Below, piece after piece: positions 52,341 to 59,531 of a DNA stretch of 59,587 bases. The number at the start of each line of letters is the position of its first letter. Positions within the stretch are counted from its first letter, which is position 1. Both the position numbers and the translations under genes were made by a program. Under the pieces are notes generated by a model. That model searched no databases. It saw only the letters and a list, made by a program, of their open reading frames with translations, and was not told where the DNA came from. This stretch comes from a virus, in the IMG/VR virus record IMGVR_UViG_3300029309_000030, positions 1-59,587 of that record; one strand, 5' to 3'.

Positions 52341-52588
52341 TCTAAACCCATGAGCGAACAGGACAAAAAGCCATCGGTTTGTTTGGTATACCAAAATTTT
52401 TCTAAAAATTTTTTTTGGTCGAGCGCCGTGTGTGGTTAAAAGGAGTCTAAACCCACATCTAAACCCAAGCCTCCGCCTAAGCGTCTAAACCCAGCGCCGT
52501 CTAAACCCGGCGTGGGTTGCAGACTAGGCGAACAGGCTCGCAGTACATCGGTCTATAGAGAAAAGGGTTTAGGCTGAAACCTAAACCC
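52341..52588. repeat. TCTAAACCC iteron cluster
   Basis: TCTAAACCC occurs at 52341, 52446, 52458, 52484 and 52500. A near copy CCTAAACCC is at 52580 and an inverted GGGTTTAG at 52565. The four central copies lie within 63 nt. Such a cluster at the junction of two divergent gene blocks is typical of initiator or regulator binding sites at a replication origin or operator. Confidence 0.7.
52390..52420. repeat. AT-rich imperfect dyad
   Basis: CCAAAATTTTT, a CTA centre, then AAAAATTTTTTTTGG form an imperfect inverted repeat made almost wholly of A and T. It lies between the first iteron and the main iteron cluster. It could be an easily melted origin element, or a promoter region for the leftward genes. 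Confidence 0.5.
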
Positions 52589-52662
52589 TAACGCAGTCAC
52601 TCGTTCTATAGAACGCTGCCCGTCGCTGCTGTCGGGCTCGCAGTGTTGCATTCTATAGAACG
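52551..52662. repeat. Three TCTATAGA palindromes
   Basis: GTCTATAGAG is at 52551, the perfect 12-nt palindrome GTTCTATAGAAC at 52603-52614, and TTCTATAGAACG at 52651. The last two are followed by similar context (CGCT). They are spaced 45-55 nt and lie just beyond the iterons, suggesting dimeric protein binding sites. Confidence 0.6.
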
Positions 52663-52764
52663 CTTCACTCATGCGTATCTAACTAAGCGGAAATTCGAGC
52701 GGGCTCCATGATAGTCATTTACAGGGGGCTAAACGCTGTACTGCGAGCCATTCGGCTGGTTCGG

Positions 52765-52796
52765 TATATAAAGAACTAATAAAGGTTAGGTAGTGA
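52765..52796 (+). promoter_or_regulatory. 32-nt promoter cassette, copy 1
   Basis: The copy begins TATATAAAGAACTAATAAAG and ends in AGG...TGA, exactly 32 nt. It is the most divergent copy in its last third. No start codon occurs 5-7 nt after it, unlike the gene-linked copies, so its transcript may be noncoding. Confidence 0.7.
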
Positions 52797-52920
52797 GAAT
52801 CACCACATCAACCAACCAACGAACCAACCAACCCGACTTGGTCGGGTCGGGTCGGCTCAGTTTTGAGCCGGTTCGCTGGGATTGGTTCGCAGTGTGGTGG
52901 TTTTCTGCTCGACCATCCGG
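52797..52920 (+). ncRNA. Possible structured RNA from promoter copy 1
   Basis: Between two promoter cassettes lie two adjacent perfect hairpins: ACCCGAC (52831-52837) with GTCGGGT (52841-52847), and CGGCTCA (52853-52859) with TGAGCCG (52864-52870). Upstream is an unstructured AACCAACC-rich segment. A 43-codon GTG frame also fits here but its product is not protein-like. No start codon follows the cassette at the usual distance. A short structured RNA is inferred. Confidence 0.35.
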
Positions 52921-52925
52921 TTGAG

Positions 52926-52957
52926 TATATAAAGAACCAATAAAGAATAGGTGCTGA
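52926..52957 (+). promoter_or_regulatory. 32-nt promoter cassette, copy 2
   Basis: The copy begins TATATAAAGAACCAATAAAG, then has AGG and TGA at the same positions as the others. It is again not followed by a start codon at 5-7 nt. It directly precedes the second hairpin-containing noncoding stretch. Confidence 0.7.
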
Positions 52958-53180
52958 CTAACCTCGGTTTGGTCGGAGAGCGCCTCCGAACCCGACCCAC
53001 TACCCAACCTCGCCACGCTCAGTCATTATCATGCGTTCTTATTCACATAAGCAAACGCTTTACTGCTAAGCAATTCATATTATTATCATATTATTATTAC
53101 AATTATTACAAGTATTACACTATTACATTCTATAATATATATCTCTAGGGAGTTACTGTAATCATCATAACTATTCCAAT
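52958..53180 (+). ncRNA. Possible structured RNA / leader from promoter copy 2
   Basis: A GC-rich 5' part can fold (CGGAG with CTCCG around 52974-52990, flanked by complementary GGTTTGGTC-like and GAACCCGACC segments). It is followed by the AT-rich tract. A 65-codon GTG frame exists but gives a low-complexity Tyr-rich product and looks spurious. Whether this is an RNA gene or a long leader for the tiny frame at 53182 cannot be decided by eye. Confidence 0.3.
53075..53150. other. AT-rich tract, candidate DNA unwinding element
   Basis: About 75 nt consist almost only of TTA/ATT-type repeats (attattatcatattattatt and similar), ending in TATAATATATAT. Together with the iterons and palindromes 500-700 nt away it makes this region a candidate replication origin. 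No initiator gene was identified in the window. Confidence 0.4.
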
Positions 53181-53181
53181 T

Positions 53182-53262
53182 ATGACTATTGAACACCTTG
53201 AAAACATCATAAACGGCTTACTGCGAGCCGACTCAATTGTAATATTCACATTCACTATATAA
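53182..53262 (+). CDS. Possible 26-residue peptide
   Basis: ATG 53182 starts a 26-residue frame (helical start MTIEHLENIINGLLRAD) whose TAA stop is formed by the TATA box of the next promoter cassette (TATATAA). The same stop-in-TATA arrangement ends the better supported gene at 53451. There is no ribosome site at the usual distance (GGGAG is about 30 nt away), so the call is weak. Confidence 0.3.
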   Translation: MTIEHLENIINGLLRADSIVIFTFTI

Positions 53263-53287
53263 AGAACCAATAAAGATAAGGAAGTGA
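53256..53287 (+). promoter_or_regulatory. 32-nt promoter cassette, copy 3
   Basis: TATATAAAGAACCAATAAAG is followed by ATAAGGAAGTGA. A TTG start follows after 5 nt (53293). It is identical to copy 4. Confidence 0.75.
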
Positions 53288-53292
53288 TTGAC

Positions 53293-53451
53293 TTGTATAG
53301 AATCAACCAACACGGAGTAGCAATAATGATATGTTGCGAAAACGACATGGAATTAGACTGCCAAATTGATTGGCGTGGTGTCTACGATTACTGGCGATGC
53401 CGAACCTGTTTCAAAAGGATTACAGACCGTGAAGAAGAATTCAATATATAA
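53293..53451 (+). CDS. 52-residue zinc-knuckle protein, first early gene
   Basis: TTG 53293 lies 5 nt after the TGA of the promoter cassette, the spacing used by the other cassettes; ATG 53326 is an in-frame alternative with GGAG upstream. The product has Cys pairs CC (13-14) and CRTC with a further Cys between, suggesting a small zinc-binding fold. The TAA stop is inside the TATA box of the next cassette. The function is unknown. Confidence 0.55.
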   Translation: MYRINQHGVAIMICCENDMELDCQIDWRGVYDYWRCRTCFKRITDREEEFNI

Positions 53452-53476
53452 AGAACCAATAAAGATAAGGAAGTGA
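53445..53476 (+). promoter_or_regulatory. 32-nt promoter cassette, copy 4
   Basis: TATATAAAGAACCAATAAAG followed by ATAAGGAAGTGA; ATG of the next gene is 5 nt downstream. Its TATA box overlaps the stop of the preceding gene. Confidence 0.85.
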
Positions 53477-53481
53477 AAAAT

Positions 53482-53796
53482 ATGGATAATGTAAGAACAG
53501 TACCTGCACCTAACAGCGAGCGAGGCAAAGAATACATTGTAGAAATAAGAACATGGTTTGACAAAGTCAACGGTAACAGTTATTTCTCAGCAAGGATATA
53601 CGATTTGAGAATGAACTTACTCAAGGTAGTGCCGTTCCAATACGGATACGGTAGCCATCCGAGGGATGTCTGTGTGGCTCACATTCAAGCAATGAACAAA
53701 GTTCATCAGCACAAATTTGAGATATCAAGAAAGACATACTTCAATGAAATGAAGTCACTAAAGAGAGACTGCGTAGCATTTGGAGAGGAAGAATGA
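53482..53796 (+). CDS. Small unknown early protein
   Basis: ATG 53482 follows cassette 4 by 5 nt. The 104-residue product is mixed alpha/beta: a strand-rich first part (KEYIVEIRTWFDKVNGNSYFSARIYD), then a helix with HIQAMNKVHQHKFEI. It ends in an ATGATG overlap with the next gene. No family recognised. Highly regulated expression from its own promoter is likely. Confidence 0.65.
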   Translation: MDNVRTVPAPNSERGKEYIVEIRTWFDKVNGNSYFSARIYDLRMNLLKVVPFQYGYGSHPRDVCVAHIQAMNKVHQHKFEISRKTYFNEMKSLKRDCVAFGEEE

Positions 53797-53930
53797 TGAC
53801 ACACAAACAAATCTTGACTAATTCATGGCAGAACGAATCGGAGTATAGAGAATATTGGATTTGCCATCGCTGTGGAAATGCAGAATTTGTAAAAATATGG
53901 AATCAAAGAGGAACTATAAACACATTTTGA
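53793..53930 (+). CDS. 45-residue protein with one CxxC knuckle
   Basis: ATG 53793 overlaps the previous stop and has GGAGAGGAAG upstream. The product (TNSWQNESEYREYWICHRCGNAEF...) holds a single C-H-R-C-G knuckle, suggesting a dimeric zinc site or half a ribbon. It is second in a two-gene operon from cassette 4. Function unknown. Confidence 0.55.
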   Translation: MMTHKQILTNSWQNESEYREYWICHRCGNAEFVKIWNQRGTINTF

Positions 53931-53936
53931 ATTCAA

Positions 53937-53968
53937 TATATAAAGAACCAATAAAGAAAAGGAGATGA
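53937..53968 (+). promoter_or_regulatory. 32-nt promoter cassette, copy 5
   Basis: TATATAAAGAACCAATAAAG followed by AAAAGGAGATGA, the most common version (copies 5, 6 and 7 are identical). ATG follows after 6 nt. Confidence 0.85.
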
Positions 53969-53974
53969 AAAAAT

Positions 53975-54412
53975 ATGGAACTGAAACACCTAAGAGCATT
54001 TAACATTGAATTGACAAACGACTTTCAAAATAACTGTCGCACTATAACGATTCTCGATAACCGACATCACCACCGAGTCGAACTGACGACATGGGATTGG
54101 GGTCTAAGTCTTAGAGGCATTGCAGACAGATGGTTCAAATATATGGATATTGAAATTGAATCCTTTACTTACCTAAAAGATGAACATTTGGTATATCTAA
54201 CCAAAGATTTCAGAACCCAAATTTATGACGAGAAGGCTTTACACATACCACAATGGATTGGAGGCACTCTCATTCAAATAGTTATTGACTTCCCAAGTGG
54301 AAAGGTTGAGATTCTTGCAGAAAGAGAGCCGTCAAAGATATACAGAACTGATTGTATCTATCAAGAAAATTACATAAAAGAAAAAACTGAGTTTGATGAA
54401 TGGCATTTATGA
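53975..54412 (+). CDS. Unknown early protein, 145 residues
   Basis: The gene is monocistronic under cassette 5. The product has alternating strands and turns (CRTITILDNRHHHRVELTTWDWGLSL; GGTLIQIVIDFPSGKVEILAE) and an acidic C-terminus. No motif or membrane segment is seen. It may be one of several host-takeover proteins encoded in this strand. Confidence 0.65.
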   Translation: MELKHLRAFNIELTNDFQNNCRTITILDNRHHHRVELTTWDWGLSLRGIADRWFKYMDIEIESFTYLKDEHLVYLTKDFRTQIYDEKALHIPQWIGGTLIQIVIDFPSGKVEILAEREPSKIYRTDCIYQENYIKEKTEFDEWHL

Positions 54413-54419
54413 AATTCAC

Positions 54420-54451
54420 TATATAAAGAACCAATAAAGAAAAGGAGATGA
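54420..54451 (+). promoter_or_regulatory. 32-nt promoter cassette, copy 6
   Basis: Identical in sequence to copy 5. It starts 8 nt after the preceding stop; ATG follows after 6 nt. Confidence 0.85.
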
Positions 54452-54457
54452 ACAAAC

Positions 54458-54691
54458 ATGACATTTGACCATGATATAGAACCAATTGACGGCTTTCACC
54501 CTAAGTATAAATCATTAGCATATTATGAAATCGAACCGCACTACGGAAGTTATATCTTAACTTCGCCTGCTAAAGAAGGTTCGATTTTAATGAGCGAGGA
54601 TGATGCAAGGTGGATGTTTGAAGATAGATTCGATGACAGATATGGCTACTTCGTAGATGATTACCTAGACCATTTTGAAACAGAAGAATGA
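54458..54691 (+). CDS. Small acidic early protein
   Basis: The 77-residue product is very acidic and aromatic (SEDDARWMFEDRFDDRYGYFVDDYLDHFETEE). Such highly acidic small proteins in viral early regions are often DNA mimics or inhibitors, but no specific similarity is recognised. It is monocistronic under cassette 6. Confidence 0.65.
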   Translation: MTFDHDIEPIDGFHPKYKSLAYYEIEPHYGSYILTSPAKEGSILMSEDDARWMFEDRFDDRYGYFVDDYLDHFETEE

Positions 54692-54698
54692 GATTCAA

Positions 54699-54730
54699 TA
54701 TATAAAGAACCAATAAAGAAAAGGAGATGA
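54699..54730 (+). promoter_or_regulatory. 32-nt promoter cassette, copy 7
   Basis: Identical to copies 5 and 6; it starts 7 nt after the preceding stop. ATG 54736 follows after 5 nt. Confidence 0.85.
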
Positions 54731-54735
54731 GAAAA

Positions 54736-55053
54736 ATGAAAATACAAGAATTTGAATACAAGAATGACAGCAAAGCAGCAATAAAAAAACTAAGGCAATT
54801 ATGCAAAGAAAAAGAAACTAAAGAAGTCGGAGTCCGAATGAAAACAGATGTGTGGGATTCAGTCAATGTACACATACCGATTAAATACGCTTGTAACTAT
54901 ATCAACGCAGTAGTCAGTGATGTTAACGAGCATAGGAATTGGGAATGGGTACAGTCAGCAGATTTGAAAATAAACATTTCAACAAGTCGGTTTTTTGTAT
55001 ATGTCAATGCATCATGTGAAGTAACTCGCATGCCAAAGAATGAAGAGGAGTGA
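54736..55053 (+). CDS. Unknown early protein, 105 residues
   Basis: ATG 54736 is chosen by the 5-nt rule; an in-frame ATG at 54727 is part of the ribosome-binding element. The product has a basic helix (KAAIKKLRQLCKEKETKE), a central segment (VNVHIPIKYACNYINAVVSDVNEH) and two cysteines. It is the first of four co-directional genes under cassette 7. Function unknown. Confidence 0.65.
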   Translation: MKIQEFEYKNDSKAAIKKLRQLCKEKETKEVGVRMKTDVWDSVNVHIPIKYACNYINAVVSDVNEHRNWEWVQSADLKINISTSRFFVYVNASCEVTRMPKNEEE

Positions 55054-55058
55054 ATCAA

Positions 55059-55205
55059 ATGTTCGAAGATATCAAAGACGCTGTGCTAGACATGACACTA
55101 TCACACTTGAACACAGCACTACATTATCACATCATCGAATTGATGGAATCAATCAATCAGACTCTTGACGAGTTTCAAGAATTAGCGGAGACAATAGGTG
55201 AATAA
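55059..55205 (+). CDS. 48-residue helical protein
   Basis: ATG 55059 follows the previous stop by 5 nt with GAGGAG upstream. The product is a nearly continuous amphipathic helix (LSHLNTALHYHIIELMESINQTLDEFQELAETIG), so a small coiled-coil dimer is likely. It might modulate a partner protein, but nothing identifies it. Confidence 0.55.
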   Translation: MFEDIKDAVLDMTLSHLNTALHYHIIELMESINQTLDEFQELAETIGE

Positions 55206-55207
55206 AT

Positions 55208-55576
55208 ATGACAGAACCATGTAAATGCGGAAGCACAGAACACGAAGCAGTCACAAGTAAAGGACTAGGAGGCATGACTACTATTACATCATGCCCTCTT
55301 GAAATAGCGAAGGTACATGAAGCGATAAAAAAACCCGTTAGAATGTATAGTCGTATCAGTTCTAGTGGTGTCAAGCATTACCACGATGAAGAAGGTTGGC
55401 AAGAAAGATATCAAGCAGATGTAGATAAAGCAGAAGCGAGATTCTTTGATGAGTCAAGTTACACAATACTACACCTTCATTATCAATTAGATATGAGCCA
55501 AAAAGGTTTCAGCAATATCACGCCACAGCACTTAGAAGCAGCCAAACTTAGAGATATAGAATTAGGAGAGGAATAA
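55208..55576 (+). CDS. Unknown early protein with N-terminal Cys/His cluster
   Basis: ATG 55208 follows after 2 nt, with GGTGAATAA upstream. The 122-residue product begins CKCGSTEHEA...SCPLE, a likely zinc site, and continues with a central basic segment and helical C-terminal half (QADVDKAEARFFDESSYTILHLHYQLDM). It belongs to the cassette 7 operon. Not assigned to a family. Confidence 0.6.
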   Translation: MTEPCKCGSTEHEAVTSKGLGGMTTITSCPLEIAKVHEAIKKPVRMYSRISSSGVKHYHDEEGWQERYQADVDKAEARFFDESSYTILHLHYQLDMSQKGFSNITPQHLEAAKLRDIELGEE

Positions 55577-55577
55577 A

Positions 55578-55826
55578 ATGACATGGAGAACACAATACTG
55601 TTACAGCAAAGAAGAAGGAATAACGCTAATGAATGGCAATCATATCATAGGTGGTAGATACCCTCCTCAAGCGAAAGGATTGACAGCGAAATACGGAGAA
55701 GTTACTCACTTTCCCACTGTTAGAGGATTACTCAAGTATTTGAGAACTCAATACCCTCAATGGGTTTGGAGGTCTAAATTAACACACTACTACGGCACTA
55801 TTGTCGAGATACAAACGAAAATGTAG
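55578..55826 (+). CDS. Small unknown early protein
   Basis: The 82-residue product starts at ATG 55578 after GGAGAGGAATAA. It looks compact and alpha/beta (YCYSKEEGITLMNGNHIIGGRYPP; HFPTVRGLLKYLRTQYPQWVWRSKL). It is the last gene of the cassette 7 operon. No recognised motif. Confidence 0.6.
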   Translation: MTWRTQYCYSKEEGITLMNGNHIIGGRYPPQAKGLTAKYGEVTHFPTVRGLLKYLRTQYPQWVWRSKLTHYYGTIVEIQTKM

Positions 55827-55833
55827 ATTTGAA

Positions 55834-55865
55834 TATATAAAGAACCAATAAAGATAAGGAGATGA
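55834..55865 (+). promoter_or_regulatory. 32-nt promoter cassette, copy 8
   Basis: TATATAAAGAACCAATAAAG followed by ATAAGGAGATGA; ATG of the ArdC-like gene follows after 5 nt. Confidence 0.85.
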
Positions 55866-55870
55866 AAATT

Positions 55871-56821
55871 ATGGCAAAAAGCAAGAGAAAATACAACCCA
55901 CAGAAATCAAAAGAATGGAATGACAAATGCGAAAAAGAATGGTTTGACTCATTCGCTGAGGCAATTCAGACAGGTAATCTTCCGTGGCAAAAGCCGTGGA
56001 AGCCTAACGGTACTGGATTTGACGGCATCCCAATGAACTTAGCAAGCAAGAAAGAGTATCGAGGTGGTAACACCATGAGGCTTATGATTGAAGCAATGTT
56101 TAGAGGTTGGACTGACCTAAGATTCGCTACAAGAAAGCAACTAATCAACGCAGGACTTTCTATTAAAGGGCTCAAAAGTGGTACTGGTTGCATCGTCAAG
56201 TATGCCGAGCGAAAGCCATACGAAGAAGAGCAAGACGACGGCACTATCGAAATCAAATACCGATGGATTAGAAAGTGGTATGAGGTATTCAACATTGAAC
56301 AATGTGAGGACTACGAAGCACCAAAGCCCGACCCGACAGCAGAAGTCAAGCCGACTCATGATATGATGAAGCACTTTAACGACTACATCAAGAACGAAGG
56401 TATCACCTTCAAGACTGGTGGCAACCGGGCTTTCTATCGAAGCAGTGCTGACCTTATCCAACTACCTACCCATGACTCTTTCATCACTCCAATCGGTGAG
56501 GTCATGACAGCATTCCACGAAGCAGGACATTCAACTGGTCATACAAGCAGATTGAAGCGGCCACTAGGCAACGGTTTCGGCACCAAAGCATACGCCTTTG
56601 AAGAACTGATAGCGGAACTATCATCCATGCTTGTAGTCATGCGACTCGGTGGCGAATTCGTACCGGATTCAGTACAAGAAGAGAACGCTAACAATGTGGC
56701 TTATCTACAGTCATGGTTGAAATCCTGTGAGGACAAAGATGAGGCTCTAGGTCTAGCATTCCACGAAGCCCAAAAAGCGGCTGACTACATGATTGAATCA
56801 ATCAAAAAAGGAGAGGAATAA
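55871..56821 (+). CDS. ArdC-like antirestriction protein with zincin-type peptidase domain
   Basis: ATG 55871 is 5 nt after cassette 8; the in-frame ATG 55862 lies within the ribosome-binding element. The 316-residue product has the ArdC N-terminal ssDNA-binding domain (FAEAIQTGNLPWQKPW, then GIPMNLASKKEYRGGNTMRL) at about 25-145 and a C-terminal metallopeptidase domain with HEAGH (216-220), His224 and downstream EELIAELSS. In plasmids ArdC-type proteins protect incoming ssDNA from restriction; in phages the same fusion is common. An early promoter fits protection of entering DNA. It heads an operon of five genes. Confidence 0.85.
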   Translation: MAKSKRKYNPQKSKEWNDKCEKEWFDSFAEAIQTGNLPWQKPWKPNGTGFDGIPMNLASKKEYRGGNTMRLMIEAMFRGWTDLRFATRKQLINAGLSIKGLKSGTGCIVKYAERKPYEEEQDDGTIEIKYRWIRKWYEVFNIEQCEDYEAPKPDPTAEVKPTHDMMKHFNDYIKNEGITFKTGGNRAFYRSSADLIQLPTHDSFITPIGEVMTAFHEAGHSTGHTSRLKRPLGNGFGTKAYAFEELIAELSSMLVVMRLGGEFVPDSVQEENANNVAYLQSWLKSCEDKDEALGLAFHEAQKAADYMIESIKKGEE

Positions 56822-56823
56822 AT

Positions 56824-57009
56824 ATGAATATAGAACAAAATGAGATTTTCAATGGCAGACACAAAGAACTAGACGAGAACAAATTTAACAGCATCATAAA
56901 AGACATTGAGGATTTTGCTGAATTGGCAAAGTATAGCGATACGGCTCTTTGGCGACTAATGAATATCATGATGGTCGCAAAGGTAGAATATGAAATAGTA
57001 AGGAGATGA
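56824..57009 (+). CDS. Small helical early protein
   Basis: The 61-residue product starts 2 nt after the ArdC-like gene, with GGAGAGGAATAAAT upstream. It is predicted mostly helical and acidic (FNSIIKDIEDFAELAKYSDTALWRLMNIMMVAKVEYEIV). It could act with the ArdC-like protein, being translated from the same message. No family recognised. Confidence 0.6.
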   Translation: MNIEQNEIFNGRHKELDENKFNSIIKDIEDFAELAKYSDTALWRLMNIMMVAKVEYEIVRR

Positions 57010-57015
57010 AGAATA

Positions 57016-57246
57016 ATGACAAAAATAAGATGTGCAAAGTGCTGTAAAATAACAGATGTAGATGATGAAGATATGTGGCAAGGAGAATTAGAGGATGTGG
57101 CCGATGGTCACCTATCCTTTAGATTCACACATTATTGTGAGAACGAAATAAGAGAAGGTGAGGACTGGGAAGAATGCGGTCACACAATCGAAGTCATAAG
57201 ATACGCTAAACTACAAGACTACAGGGATATTGAACAGGAGGAATAA
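57016..57246 (+). CDS. Small zinc-binding early protein
   Basis: The 76-residue product starts at ATG 57016 after AAGGAGATGA, the same ribosome-binding element as in the cassettes but without a TATA box. It has CAKCC near the N-terminus and later Cys residues in HYCENE and EECGH, together a plausible zinc site in an otherwise acidic protein. Function unknown. Confidence 0.6.
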   Translation: MTKIRCAKCCKITDVDDEDMWQGELEDVADGHLSFRFTHYCENEIREGEDWEECGHTIEVIRYAKLQDYRDIEQEE

Positions 57247-57248
57247 AT

Positions 57249-57578
57249 ATGAGTGTTAATACTAAAGATAATTACCTAAGTTATGAGATACCGAAAGGCG
57301 CAACTGACTACCATGATGACCATGAGAACCACAAGTATTACTGTATAGATGATGACAGATATGATGATAACGACATCTACGAACAAGAACACTACGACTT
57401 TGAAACACTCGGAAAATACTTAGAGTACATCAAGTTCTTCAACAATTCATTCACAGATGTAGAGCCTCTTCTTGAGAAGGCAATATTGTGGGCTAATGGT
57501 GACGAGAGTATTGTTACAGAAAGAATGAACCACATGAAGAGACTTATGGAGAGACGACAATGGAGGCTCAAAGTATGA
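57249..57578 (+). CDS. Acidic early protein, 109 residues
   Basis: The start is 2 nt after the previous stop, with CAGGAGGAATAA upstream. The first half is rich in Asp/His/Tyr (DYHDDHENHKYYCIDDDRYDD), the second helical (LGKYLEYIKFFNNSF; HMKRLMERRQWRLKV). The charge asymmetry (acidic start, basic end) is notable. No motif of known function. Confidence 0.6.
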   Translation: MSVNTKDNYLSYEIPKGATDYHDDHENHKYYCIDDDRYDDNDIYEQEHYDFETLGKYLEYIKFFNNSFTDVEPLLEKAILWANGDESIVTERMNHMKRLMERRQWRLKV

Positions 57579-57889
57579 AAATTGGAACGGATGAATTATG
57601 GTTGACAGACGAAGAGAAAGGATGGATGCTACATGCTATTTATTTAGGTGAGGATAATATGATATTATTTTCAGAAAAAACATGGAAATGGATTGCCGAG
57701 CCGATGGTAAATACTCCAATACATCAACAATGCAATTTCTATCAACAATATATTAAATTCGGAGGCTTAGATGATTTGACATACAATAATGAAGAGGCTT
57801 TGAAGAAAACTATTGAATATGCCAACGACAAAATCACGAAGATTTTTCGATTCATTGAATCGTTTTTTGAACTCTACAACCAAGGTTGA
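57575..57889 (+). CDS. Unknown early protein, 104 residues
   Basis: ATG 57575 overlaps the previous stop (ATGA) and is preferred to the upstream ATG 57560. The product is acidic and aromatic (DELWLTDEEKGWMLHAIYLGEDNM; KTIEYANDKITKIFRFIESFFELY). It is the last gene of the cassette 8 operon; its TGA stop is immediately followed by cassette 9. Confidence 0.6.
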   Translation: MKIGTDELWLTDEEKGWMLHAIYLGEDNMILFSEKTWKWIAEPMVNTPIHQQCNFYQQYIKFGGLDDLTYNNEEALKKTIEYANDKITKIFRFIESFFELYNQG

Positions 57890-57890
57890 C

Positions 57891-57922
57891 TATATAAAGA
57901 ACCAATAAAGAAAGGGAAGTGA
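57891..57922 (+). promoter_or_regulatory. 32-nt promoter cassette, copy 9
   Basis: TATATAAAGAACCAATAAAG followed by AAAGGGAAGTGA; it starts 1 nt after the preceding stop. ATG 57928 follows after 5 nt. Confidence 0.85.
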
Positions 57923-57927
57923 GAAAA

Positions 57928-58167
57928 ATGGAAATAACATTACAAGAACTAAACGAAATAATCGAGCAAGCAAAGAACGAAGCAGAAGTAACCATGCGTA
58001 GCAAGATAGCGAAGTATATCAATCAAGGTTACACTACCAACGGAATACTAAACCTGCTTAGCGAATTTAACCTTGTTACAGGTTACAGACATAAGAATCA
58101 AATTCAGATAGACGGCTTCAACTCAGATAAGCCAGTCATGATAATCAATCCGAGGGATGAAGAATGA
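57928..58167 (+). CDS. Small helical early protein
   Basis: ATG 57928 is set by the 5-nt spacing; the GTG at 57919 is within the ribosome element. The 79-residue product begins with a charged coil (LQELNEIIEQAKNEAEVTMRSKIAKYINQG) and continues with a segment like a small DNA-binding helix pair (YTTNGILNLLSEFNLVTGY). It is the first of five overlapping genes under cassette 9. Confidence 0.6.
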   Translation: MEITLQELNEIIEQAKNEAEVTMRSKIAKYINQGYTTNGILNLLSEFNLVTGYRHKNQIQIDGFNSDKPVMIINPRDEE

Positions 58168-58253
58168 CACCATGTAATATTTGTAATGGGTGGAATGATT
58201 CCAAAAACCAAACATGTAGTAATTGTGGTTGTCTAACGGAGGAAGAAAGATGA
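58164..58253 (+). CDS. 29-residue zinc-knuckle peptide
   Basis: The frame opens at ATG 58164 in an ATGA overlap and closes at 58253 in an overlap with the next ATG. The product carries CNIC (4-7) and CSNCGC (19-24), a four-cysteine mini zinc ribbon. The two-sided stop-start overlap argues that it is a true gene rather than chance. Confidence 0.5.
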   Translation: MTPCNICNGWNDSKNQTCSNCGCLTEEER

Positions 58254-58381
58254 TTATTTTTTGCCCTACATGCCATTCAGCAATTACATATCTTAATGCT
58301 CGGAAGAGCATTACATTTGAACCATGCGAATGTATGGAGAAAATTGGATTAACTGAACCTATTATGAGTGATGAAGTATGA
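58250..58381 (+). CDS. 43-residue zinc-knuckle protein
   Basis: ATG 58250 has GGAGGAAGA upstream and overlaps the previous stop. The product has CPTCH (5-9) and CEC (26-28), a second mini zinc site directly after the previous peptide. It ends in an ATGA overlap with the next gene. Function unknown. Confidence 0.55.
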   Translation: MIIFCPTCHSAITYLNARKSITFEPCECMEKIGLTEPIMSDEV

Positions 58382-58548
58382 AGTCGGAAACAATACAAGC
58401 ACTCTACGATGATTACAAGGAATATCAAGAATGGTATTATCAAAACCACGGATGGGTCATGGAAGAAACTTTCCGTGAATATGTCCAACGCTGTATTGAC
58501 AACGACGAACTAGAATTACTTAGACAAATAGAAAACGGGAGAGATTGA
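58378..58548 (+). CDS. 56-residue helical early protein
   Basis: ATG 58378 overlaps the previous stop. The product is highly charged and helical, with aromatic residues (YDDYKEYQEWYYQNHGWVMEETF) and one Cys. It is compatible with a small regulatory protein; no family recognised. Confidence 0.5.
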   Translation: MKSETIQALYDDYKEYQEWYYQNHGWVMEETFREYVQRCIDNDELELLRQIENGRD

Positions 58549-58549
58549 A

Positions 58550-58705
58550 ATGGCTATGATTATTGAAAACTTTGAAACTGACAGATATAATAAAGAACAA
58601 ATTATTTCGATATTGAAACTATATGTAGAACAAACTGATTGGCTTTATCTTACAAGAGAAGAGGCAATGGAAAACGGTTGGACTTACGAGGATGCTCAAA
58701 TTTGA
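58550..58705 (+). CDS. 51-residue helical early protein
   Basis: ATG 58550 is 1 nt after the previous stop, with GGGAGAG upstream. The product has helices (NKEQIISILKLYVEQTDWLY; TREEAMENGWTYEDA). It closes the cassette 9 operon and its TGA is directly followed by cassette 10. Confidence 0.5.
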   Translation: MAMIIENFETDRYNKEQIISILKLYVEQTDWLYLTREEAMENGWTYEDAQI

Positions 58706-58706
58706 G

Positions 58707-58738
58707 TATATAAAGAACTAACAAAGAAAGGGAAGTGA
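58707..58738 (+). promoter_or_regulatory. 32-nt promoter cassette, copy 10
   Basis: TATATAAAGAACTAACAAAG followed by AAAGGGAAGTGA, a slightly diverged copy with the same length. ATG 58744 follows after 5 nt. Confidence 0.8.
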
Positions 58739-59291: not shown

Positions 59292-59531
59292 ATGATTGAC
59301 ACAGACAAATACGAAGGGCATGATAATTGGGAAGGCACTAAAGTCAATATGGCTAACGAGGCAAATAAATTACTCATAGCCGACGCACCACTTCTTCTAC
59401 AGGAAGTCAAGCGGTTGCGTGAAGAAAACAATCGCTATCTTGACTTTATCCTTTGGCTCGGTATAGAACATAAAGGAAAAAAACTCGCATGGGAATATGG
59501 AGATGAAAAAATAGTGGAGATGGTTGAATGA
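59292..59531 (+). CDS. Coiled-coil early protein, 79 residues
   Basis: ATG 59292 has GGAGGAATGAAG upstream. The product carries a long helix (ANEANKLLIADAPLLLQEVKRLREENNRYLDFILWL), a pattern common in small phage proteins of unknown role. It overlaps the next frame by 4 nt. Confidence 0.6.
   Translation: MIDTDKYEGHDNWEGTKVNMANEANKLLIADAPLLLQEVKRLREENNRYLDFILWLGIEHKGKKLAWEYGDEKIVEMVE

Follow-up and report, generated by a model that had tools for sequence, protein, structure and literature searches.

Repeated, likely archaeal-type promoter cassettes that appear to evolve as one unit in magrovirus-like genomes

The window studied here (a virus record, analysed over its whole 59,587 bases) carries ten copies of a short cassette, and the reading we consider likely is that this is one archaeal-type core promoter, copied in front of early genes and small operons and read by the host, with transcription starting around cassette position 29-31 and an internal block, AACCAATAAAG, probably read by a regulator. 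Within each virus genome the copies seem to change together, as a single evolving unit. The first-pass annotation had described a promoter-like unit repeated before genes, and this description was borne out, the cassettes being intergenic and occupying the same gene sites in other lineages.

Genes for the capsid protease, major head protein, portal and terminase form a minus-strand block that extends to about 52.4 kb. The opposite arm carries the cassettes; it is composed of small genes together with an ArdC-like anti-restriction gene and presumably holds the early genes. The portal gave 11 matches in the phage collection, 11/11 to records with archaeal hosts, the HVTV-1 group being the best. 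Of 14 records, 13 encode a thermosome-family chaperonin; the window, which is a fragment, is the single one without it. Since the relatives carry this chaperonin, and since a chaperonin and a host among the marine archaea have been described for the magrovirus family Aoguangviridae, none of whose members has been cultured (PMC10768690), we call the window magrovirus-like; its host would belong to the Poseidoniales. Relatives were located with the ArdC gene as a handle and through capsid relatives. The family analysis covered the 26 related records except G005, G011, G015, G016, G020, G023, G024 and G026; several other related records were analysed in part, and G011 was represented by L095 alone. 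TCTAAACCC recurs several times in the gap between the two gene arms (52366-52760), which also has three TCTATAGA palindromes and by eye is origin-like. A family of small genes starting MIDT-KYEG, with the repeated word GAATGATTGACACAG, recurs at 59292 in the window and in G013, G018 and G019.

All ten cassettes lie at the positions originally given for them, every copy on the plus strand. The 20-mer said to be common to the ten is exact in eight, cassettes 2 (52926-52957), 3 (53256-53287), 4 (53445-53476), 5 (53937-53968), 6 (54420-54451), 7 (54699-54730), 8 (55834-55865) and 9 (57891-57922), but cassette 1 (52765-52796) carries the variant AACTAATAAAG, with one mismatch, and cassette 10 (58707-58738) the variant AACTAACAAAG, whose two mismatches give the form found in related viruses. 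The TATA box TATATAAAG is present in 10/10, as are the GG at positions 25-26 and the TGA at 30-32 of the 12-nt end, and some copies have this end in common too. The rest of the 59,587-base record gave zero further matches within three mismatches; chance controls gave 0 matches in 100 dinucleotide shuffles and 0 for the reversed pattern. The stop codon of the upstream gene often lies at -4 to -16 from the TATA box, and a small number of cassettes share some bases with the end of the frame before them.

As had been noted, seven of the ten cassettes are followed by an ATG after 5-6 nt (53482, 53975, 54458, 54736, 55871, 57928 and 58744, behind cassettes 4 to 10 respectively), with further in-frame ATGs at 54727 for cassette 7 and 55862 for cassette 8, and cassette 3 is followed after 5 nt by a TTG at 53293 that opens a 52-codon frame. 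Behind cassette 8 stands the ArdC-like anti-restriction gene (55862-56821, plus strand; ArdcN and MPTase-PolyVal). The start codon is missing behind two copies: cassette 2 has no close one, and cassette 1 has no open reading frame behind it and is followed by an inverted repeat. The frame behind cassette 3 (53293-53448) contains cysteine pairs that by eye are zinc-ribbon-like, and it had no Pfam match.

The inverted repeat behind cassette 1 (52795-52905 on the plus strand, about 52793-52925 overall), the outer stem of which runs from cassette position 31, has a fold z of -7.2 and is kept, with partial breaks, in two relatives. An Rfam search with it gave no match, and no compensatory change was seen in the three sequences in which it was looked for. 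It may be a viral small RNA or, equally, a DNA-level inverted repeat.

The degenerate form of the 20-mer, TATATAAAGARYYAAYAAAG, was matched in 21 stretches, of which L099, L107, L111 and L115 were left out for having a single isolated divergent copy each; a search for the exact 20-mer found it in no other viral contig. At one mismatch or fewer the cassette was absent from the host-order genomes (0/292), and we therefore take it to be the virus's own. Other lineages have different cassettes, each likewise repeated on one strand, with the forms TTCAC-TACTTAAAG-CAGCATCAA, TTGAC-TATATAAAC-CGAGATTGAA, TTGAC-TACTTAAAC-AAAGAATGAA, TGGTTATAAAG-AAACAATAAAG, GGTTATAAAT-AAACAAGAGA, GATTC-TATATAAAG-AAATGAA, TTATAAAAGACCAATAAAG and TTATAAACTGACAATAAAG, and up to 13 distinct copies occur per record. 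In 8 genomes from 4 families such a lineage-specific cassette precedes ArdC, and in 11 genomes from 8 families one precedes an RFC-like clamp-loader gene, a putative label taken from the P-loop, the length and in part an EKYRP motif, most so for the B-D families. In G021 no cassette family was found, and none at its RFC-like gene; G022 has three cassette sites only, and in G007 no cassette lies directly in front of ArdC. Some lineages have ACTGA upstream of the TATA box, which in some cases, not in all, is a stop codon.

Comparison with these relatives also redefined the extent of the unit. Conservation within each genome includes positions -5 to -1, upstream of the first base originally assigned to the cassette, which read TTSAV in most copies of the window's lineage and are not a textbook BRE. 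Mean identity within a genome and between families was 0.97 and 0.70 at positions 1-9, 0.91 and 0.54 at 10-18, 0.56 and 0.39 at 21-28, and 0.41 and 0.35 at 35-45, the within-genome values being partly high by construction (the sites were picked by a search motif with 3-4 mismatches allowed), so that the telling features of the profile are the contrast at 10-18 and the fall past 20. Positions 5-8 are close to invariant across families. On this profile the conserved unit spans about -5 to 20 (~25 nt), and the earlier idea of one recognised unit of exactly 32 nt is not supported: the relatives conserve this part only, and in them the leader and ribosome site are free to vary in length. A constant length of 32 nt characterises the window's lineage and not the system as a whole.

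The spacing between TATA box and start codon was analysed in hosts and viruses. Four genomes of the host order (Poseidoniales; L197-L216) supplied the host sample of about 610 kb. Among the 161 host genes without a Shine-Dalgarno sequence, TATA words peak at 27-29 nt ahead of the ATG, where 37 were counted and about 14 would be expected from positions -60 to -30, with the first ATG taken as gene start, upstream stretches containing N dropped, and counts that are non-independent as the words overlap; genes with a Shine-Dalgarno sequence (n=88) have no TATA peak at -29 to -27. Strong TATA hexamers are rare before host genes (2 matches in 95 upstream stretches) and the host TATA words are weak, so that the typical host promoter looks weaker than a viral cassette. 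Four tRNA genes were seen in the first host sample. The viral start-codon table held 117 distinct cassettes from seven families, with G007, G017 and G022 left out, and 106 of them have an ATG-led frame of at least 30 codons. The ATG falls at cassette positions 20-28 in 1, 29-33 in 18, 34-40 in 58 and at least 41 in 29, and hence 105 of the 106 frames begin at position 29 or later, under a start-choice rule that favoured ATGs with a ribosome site and set aside a further in-frame ATG at 24-28 at four sites; the lone exception is a 48-codon frame over a hairpin. Because the lower bound for the ATG is at 29 and the host TATA peak is at -29 to -27, we place the start near 29, in agreement with the earlier argument that standard archaeal spacing puts it on or after the ribosome-binding element. 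Judged from this spacing, transcription probably starts near position 29-31, on the Shine-Dalgarno sequence, the ribosome site of the window (about 24-32) overlapping the predicted start.

This overlap bears on whether the same promoter could have an unusually short TATA-to-start distance, with a start at about 18-22 and the Shine-Dalgarno sequence in an ordinary mRNA leader. Ribosome-site words look functional since they track the start codon: they occur at 20-28 in 43 of the 58 cassettes with an ATG at 34-40 versus 12 of the 29 with an ATG at 41 or beyond (11/18 with an ATG at 29-33 and 5/11 without an ATG), and in the window the word stands 5-6 nt before the ATG. A functional-looking ribosome site would be odd if absent from the local transcript, a conflict that a start near position 20 would remove. 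However, start codons stop abruptly at position 29 (1/106 earlier), the G012 and G014 lineages place their ATG at 29 with no ribosome site, and host genes without a Shine-Dalgarno sequence peak at the same spacing, which makes the short distance unlikely. Under the start near 29 that we prefer, ribosome sites at 22-28 would work in mRNAs running in from upstream; in the lineages where the array start was recognised (G008, G009, G010, G013 and G014) the first gene has its ribosome-site word at position 29 or later, these genes being likely orthologues in part and not independent. Gene-less cassettes of the window's lineage keep the GG at 25-26 and YGA at 30-32, with GGA changed to GGT, and part of the 25-32 region may therefore belong to the initiator.

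A second alternative concerns the uniformity of the copies, which could result from copying alone (a promoter module duplicated recently or spread by short gene conversion), without a special reading factor. The copies are indeed near-identical, down to the 12-nt end in some of them. Compared with their orthologues in G001 or G002, the cassettes at 52926, 53256, 55834 and 57891 differ exactly at positions 13 (T to C) and 16 (C to T), the direction being inferred from the majority form among relatives, and their near flanks are kept; cassette 52765 is changed at position 16 only. At 52926 both flanks are identical to those of the G002 orthologue, are site-specific and differ from the flanks of other copies, yet only 13 and 16 changed, as at the three other sites, and a conversion tract there would need to be confined to ~20 nt. 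Copying alone is thus a possible but less likely account, and the changes at 13 and 16, as read from these alignments, speak for selection by something that would read all copies. Far less probable, to the point of being very improbable, is that the cassette is the promoter of a virus-encoded T7-like RNA polymerase or, as the first-pass annotation had offered, a -10 or late-type element of a bacterial phage. Promoters of T7-like phages are short, genome-specific and repeated through one gene block, and a genome-specific promoter of ~23 nt repeated on one strand resembles them. Against this, the single-subunit RNA polymerase (PF00940) was matched in 0/20 viral records, several of them fragments, with the phage T7 control at 9.9e-110, which leaves a T7-type polymerase promoter without support; the portal matches, all to archaeal-virus records, speak against a bacterial-phage element.

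Under the host-read promoter that we favour, the virus would have placed copies of one archaeal-type core promoter before early genes and small operons. Host TBP would bind TATATAAAG and host TFB the TTSAV element just upstream, host RNA polymerase would start near cassette position 29-31, as the spacing suggests, and the block would then lie at about -20 to -10. Because the block is uniform within a genome and different between lineages, it is most likely read by something scanning all copies, for which a viral regulator switching the early genes together would be a candidate. In the window's lineage local transcripts would have leaders of 7-10 nt that lack the Shine-Dalgarno sequence, and this sequence would act chiefly in mRNAs that read through from cassettes further upstream.

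The suggestion that a viral factor binds the block is compatible with the concerted evolution described above, but no trans factor was found in the window's lineage. Viral TFB (PF00382) was detected in 0/14 records at E<=1e-3; at E<=10 there was one weak match among 16 records (G009, 0.005), and PF08271 gave weak matches under the cut-off in 8/16. The weak PF00382 match corresponds to a family of 94-112 aa in G008, G009, G010, G012, G013, G014 and G022, which was not detected in the window's lineage. The cyclin-fold protein (L238:1405-1740) has homologues in L174, L178, L120, L132 and L151, in several cases near the RFC-like gene. The model of the 94-112 aa protein is a single cyclin fold whose best Foldseek match is archaeal TFB (E 0.08, none at E<=0.001), with VIA-align Z of 8-10, below the tool's guide for helical folds, and we regard it as a candidate TFB-like protein. 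A TFB is listed in another magrovirus in the ICTV profile (PMC10768690). The first-gene products of other lineages had no Pfam match naming a regulator. A more ambitious and rather doubtful proposal is that each lineage has its own early-promoter code, in which a viral factor that co-evolves with the -20 to -10 block would read it; in some lineages this factor might be the TFB-like cyclin-fold protein. If so, a shift in the specificity of the factor would move all cassettes, and the changes at 8 of 10 sites in the window would mean that such a shift is almost complete there.

The closest precedent is the halovirus HF2, likewise a tailed archaeal virus with TATA-containing intergenic repeats. 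Its class I and II intergenic repeats (58 and 29 bp) are proven promoters with measured activity and start sites, active without other viral genes; the motifs are confined to the repeats in the genome, contain a TATA from -26 and are conserved among related viruses, and viral regulators were proposed by the authors (PMC8707807). The predicted start near 29 is therefore within the known archaeal range. HF2 carries its class I repeat seven times and its class II repeat twice, against up to 13 distinct copies per record here; the present system, known from sequence alone, also has a block that differs by lineage and a ribosome site lying over the predicted start. Relative to HF2, our results add the scale, the lineage-specific block, the change of its copies in concert and this overlap. 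The SAS (13 bp, at the start codon) and ESAS (17-bp inverted repeats) of cluster K mycobacteriophages are also short asymmetric repeats, mostly in one orientation, just before start codons, and the consensus of the extended part differs in each subcluster; the unit here, in contrast, centres on a TATA box (PMC3203893). A literature search for magrovirus or Poseidoniales/marine group II promoters found no paper on the subject, one on intergenic repeat promoters of archaeal viruses found HF1/HF2-type viruses only, and a word search of the main text of the magrovirus survey found neither promoter nor TATA (PMC10160649). The repeated promoters of T7-like phages are similar, but no single-subunit RNA polymerase was found here in the 20 records.

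The cassettes show directly where the early transcription units of magroviruses are likely to lie and supply a spacing rule for the promoters of their hosts. They also constitute a natural, lineage-specific promoter set with which to study the takeover of the host transcription machinery by archaeal viruses.
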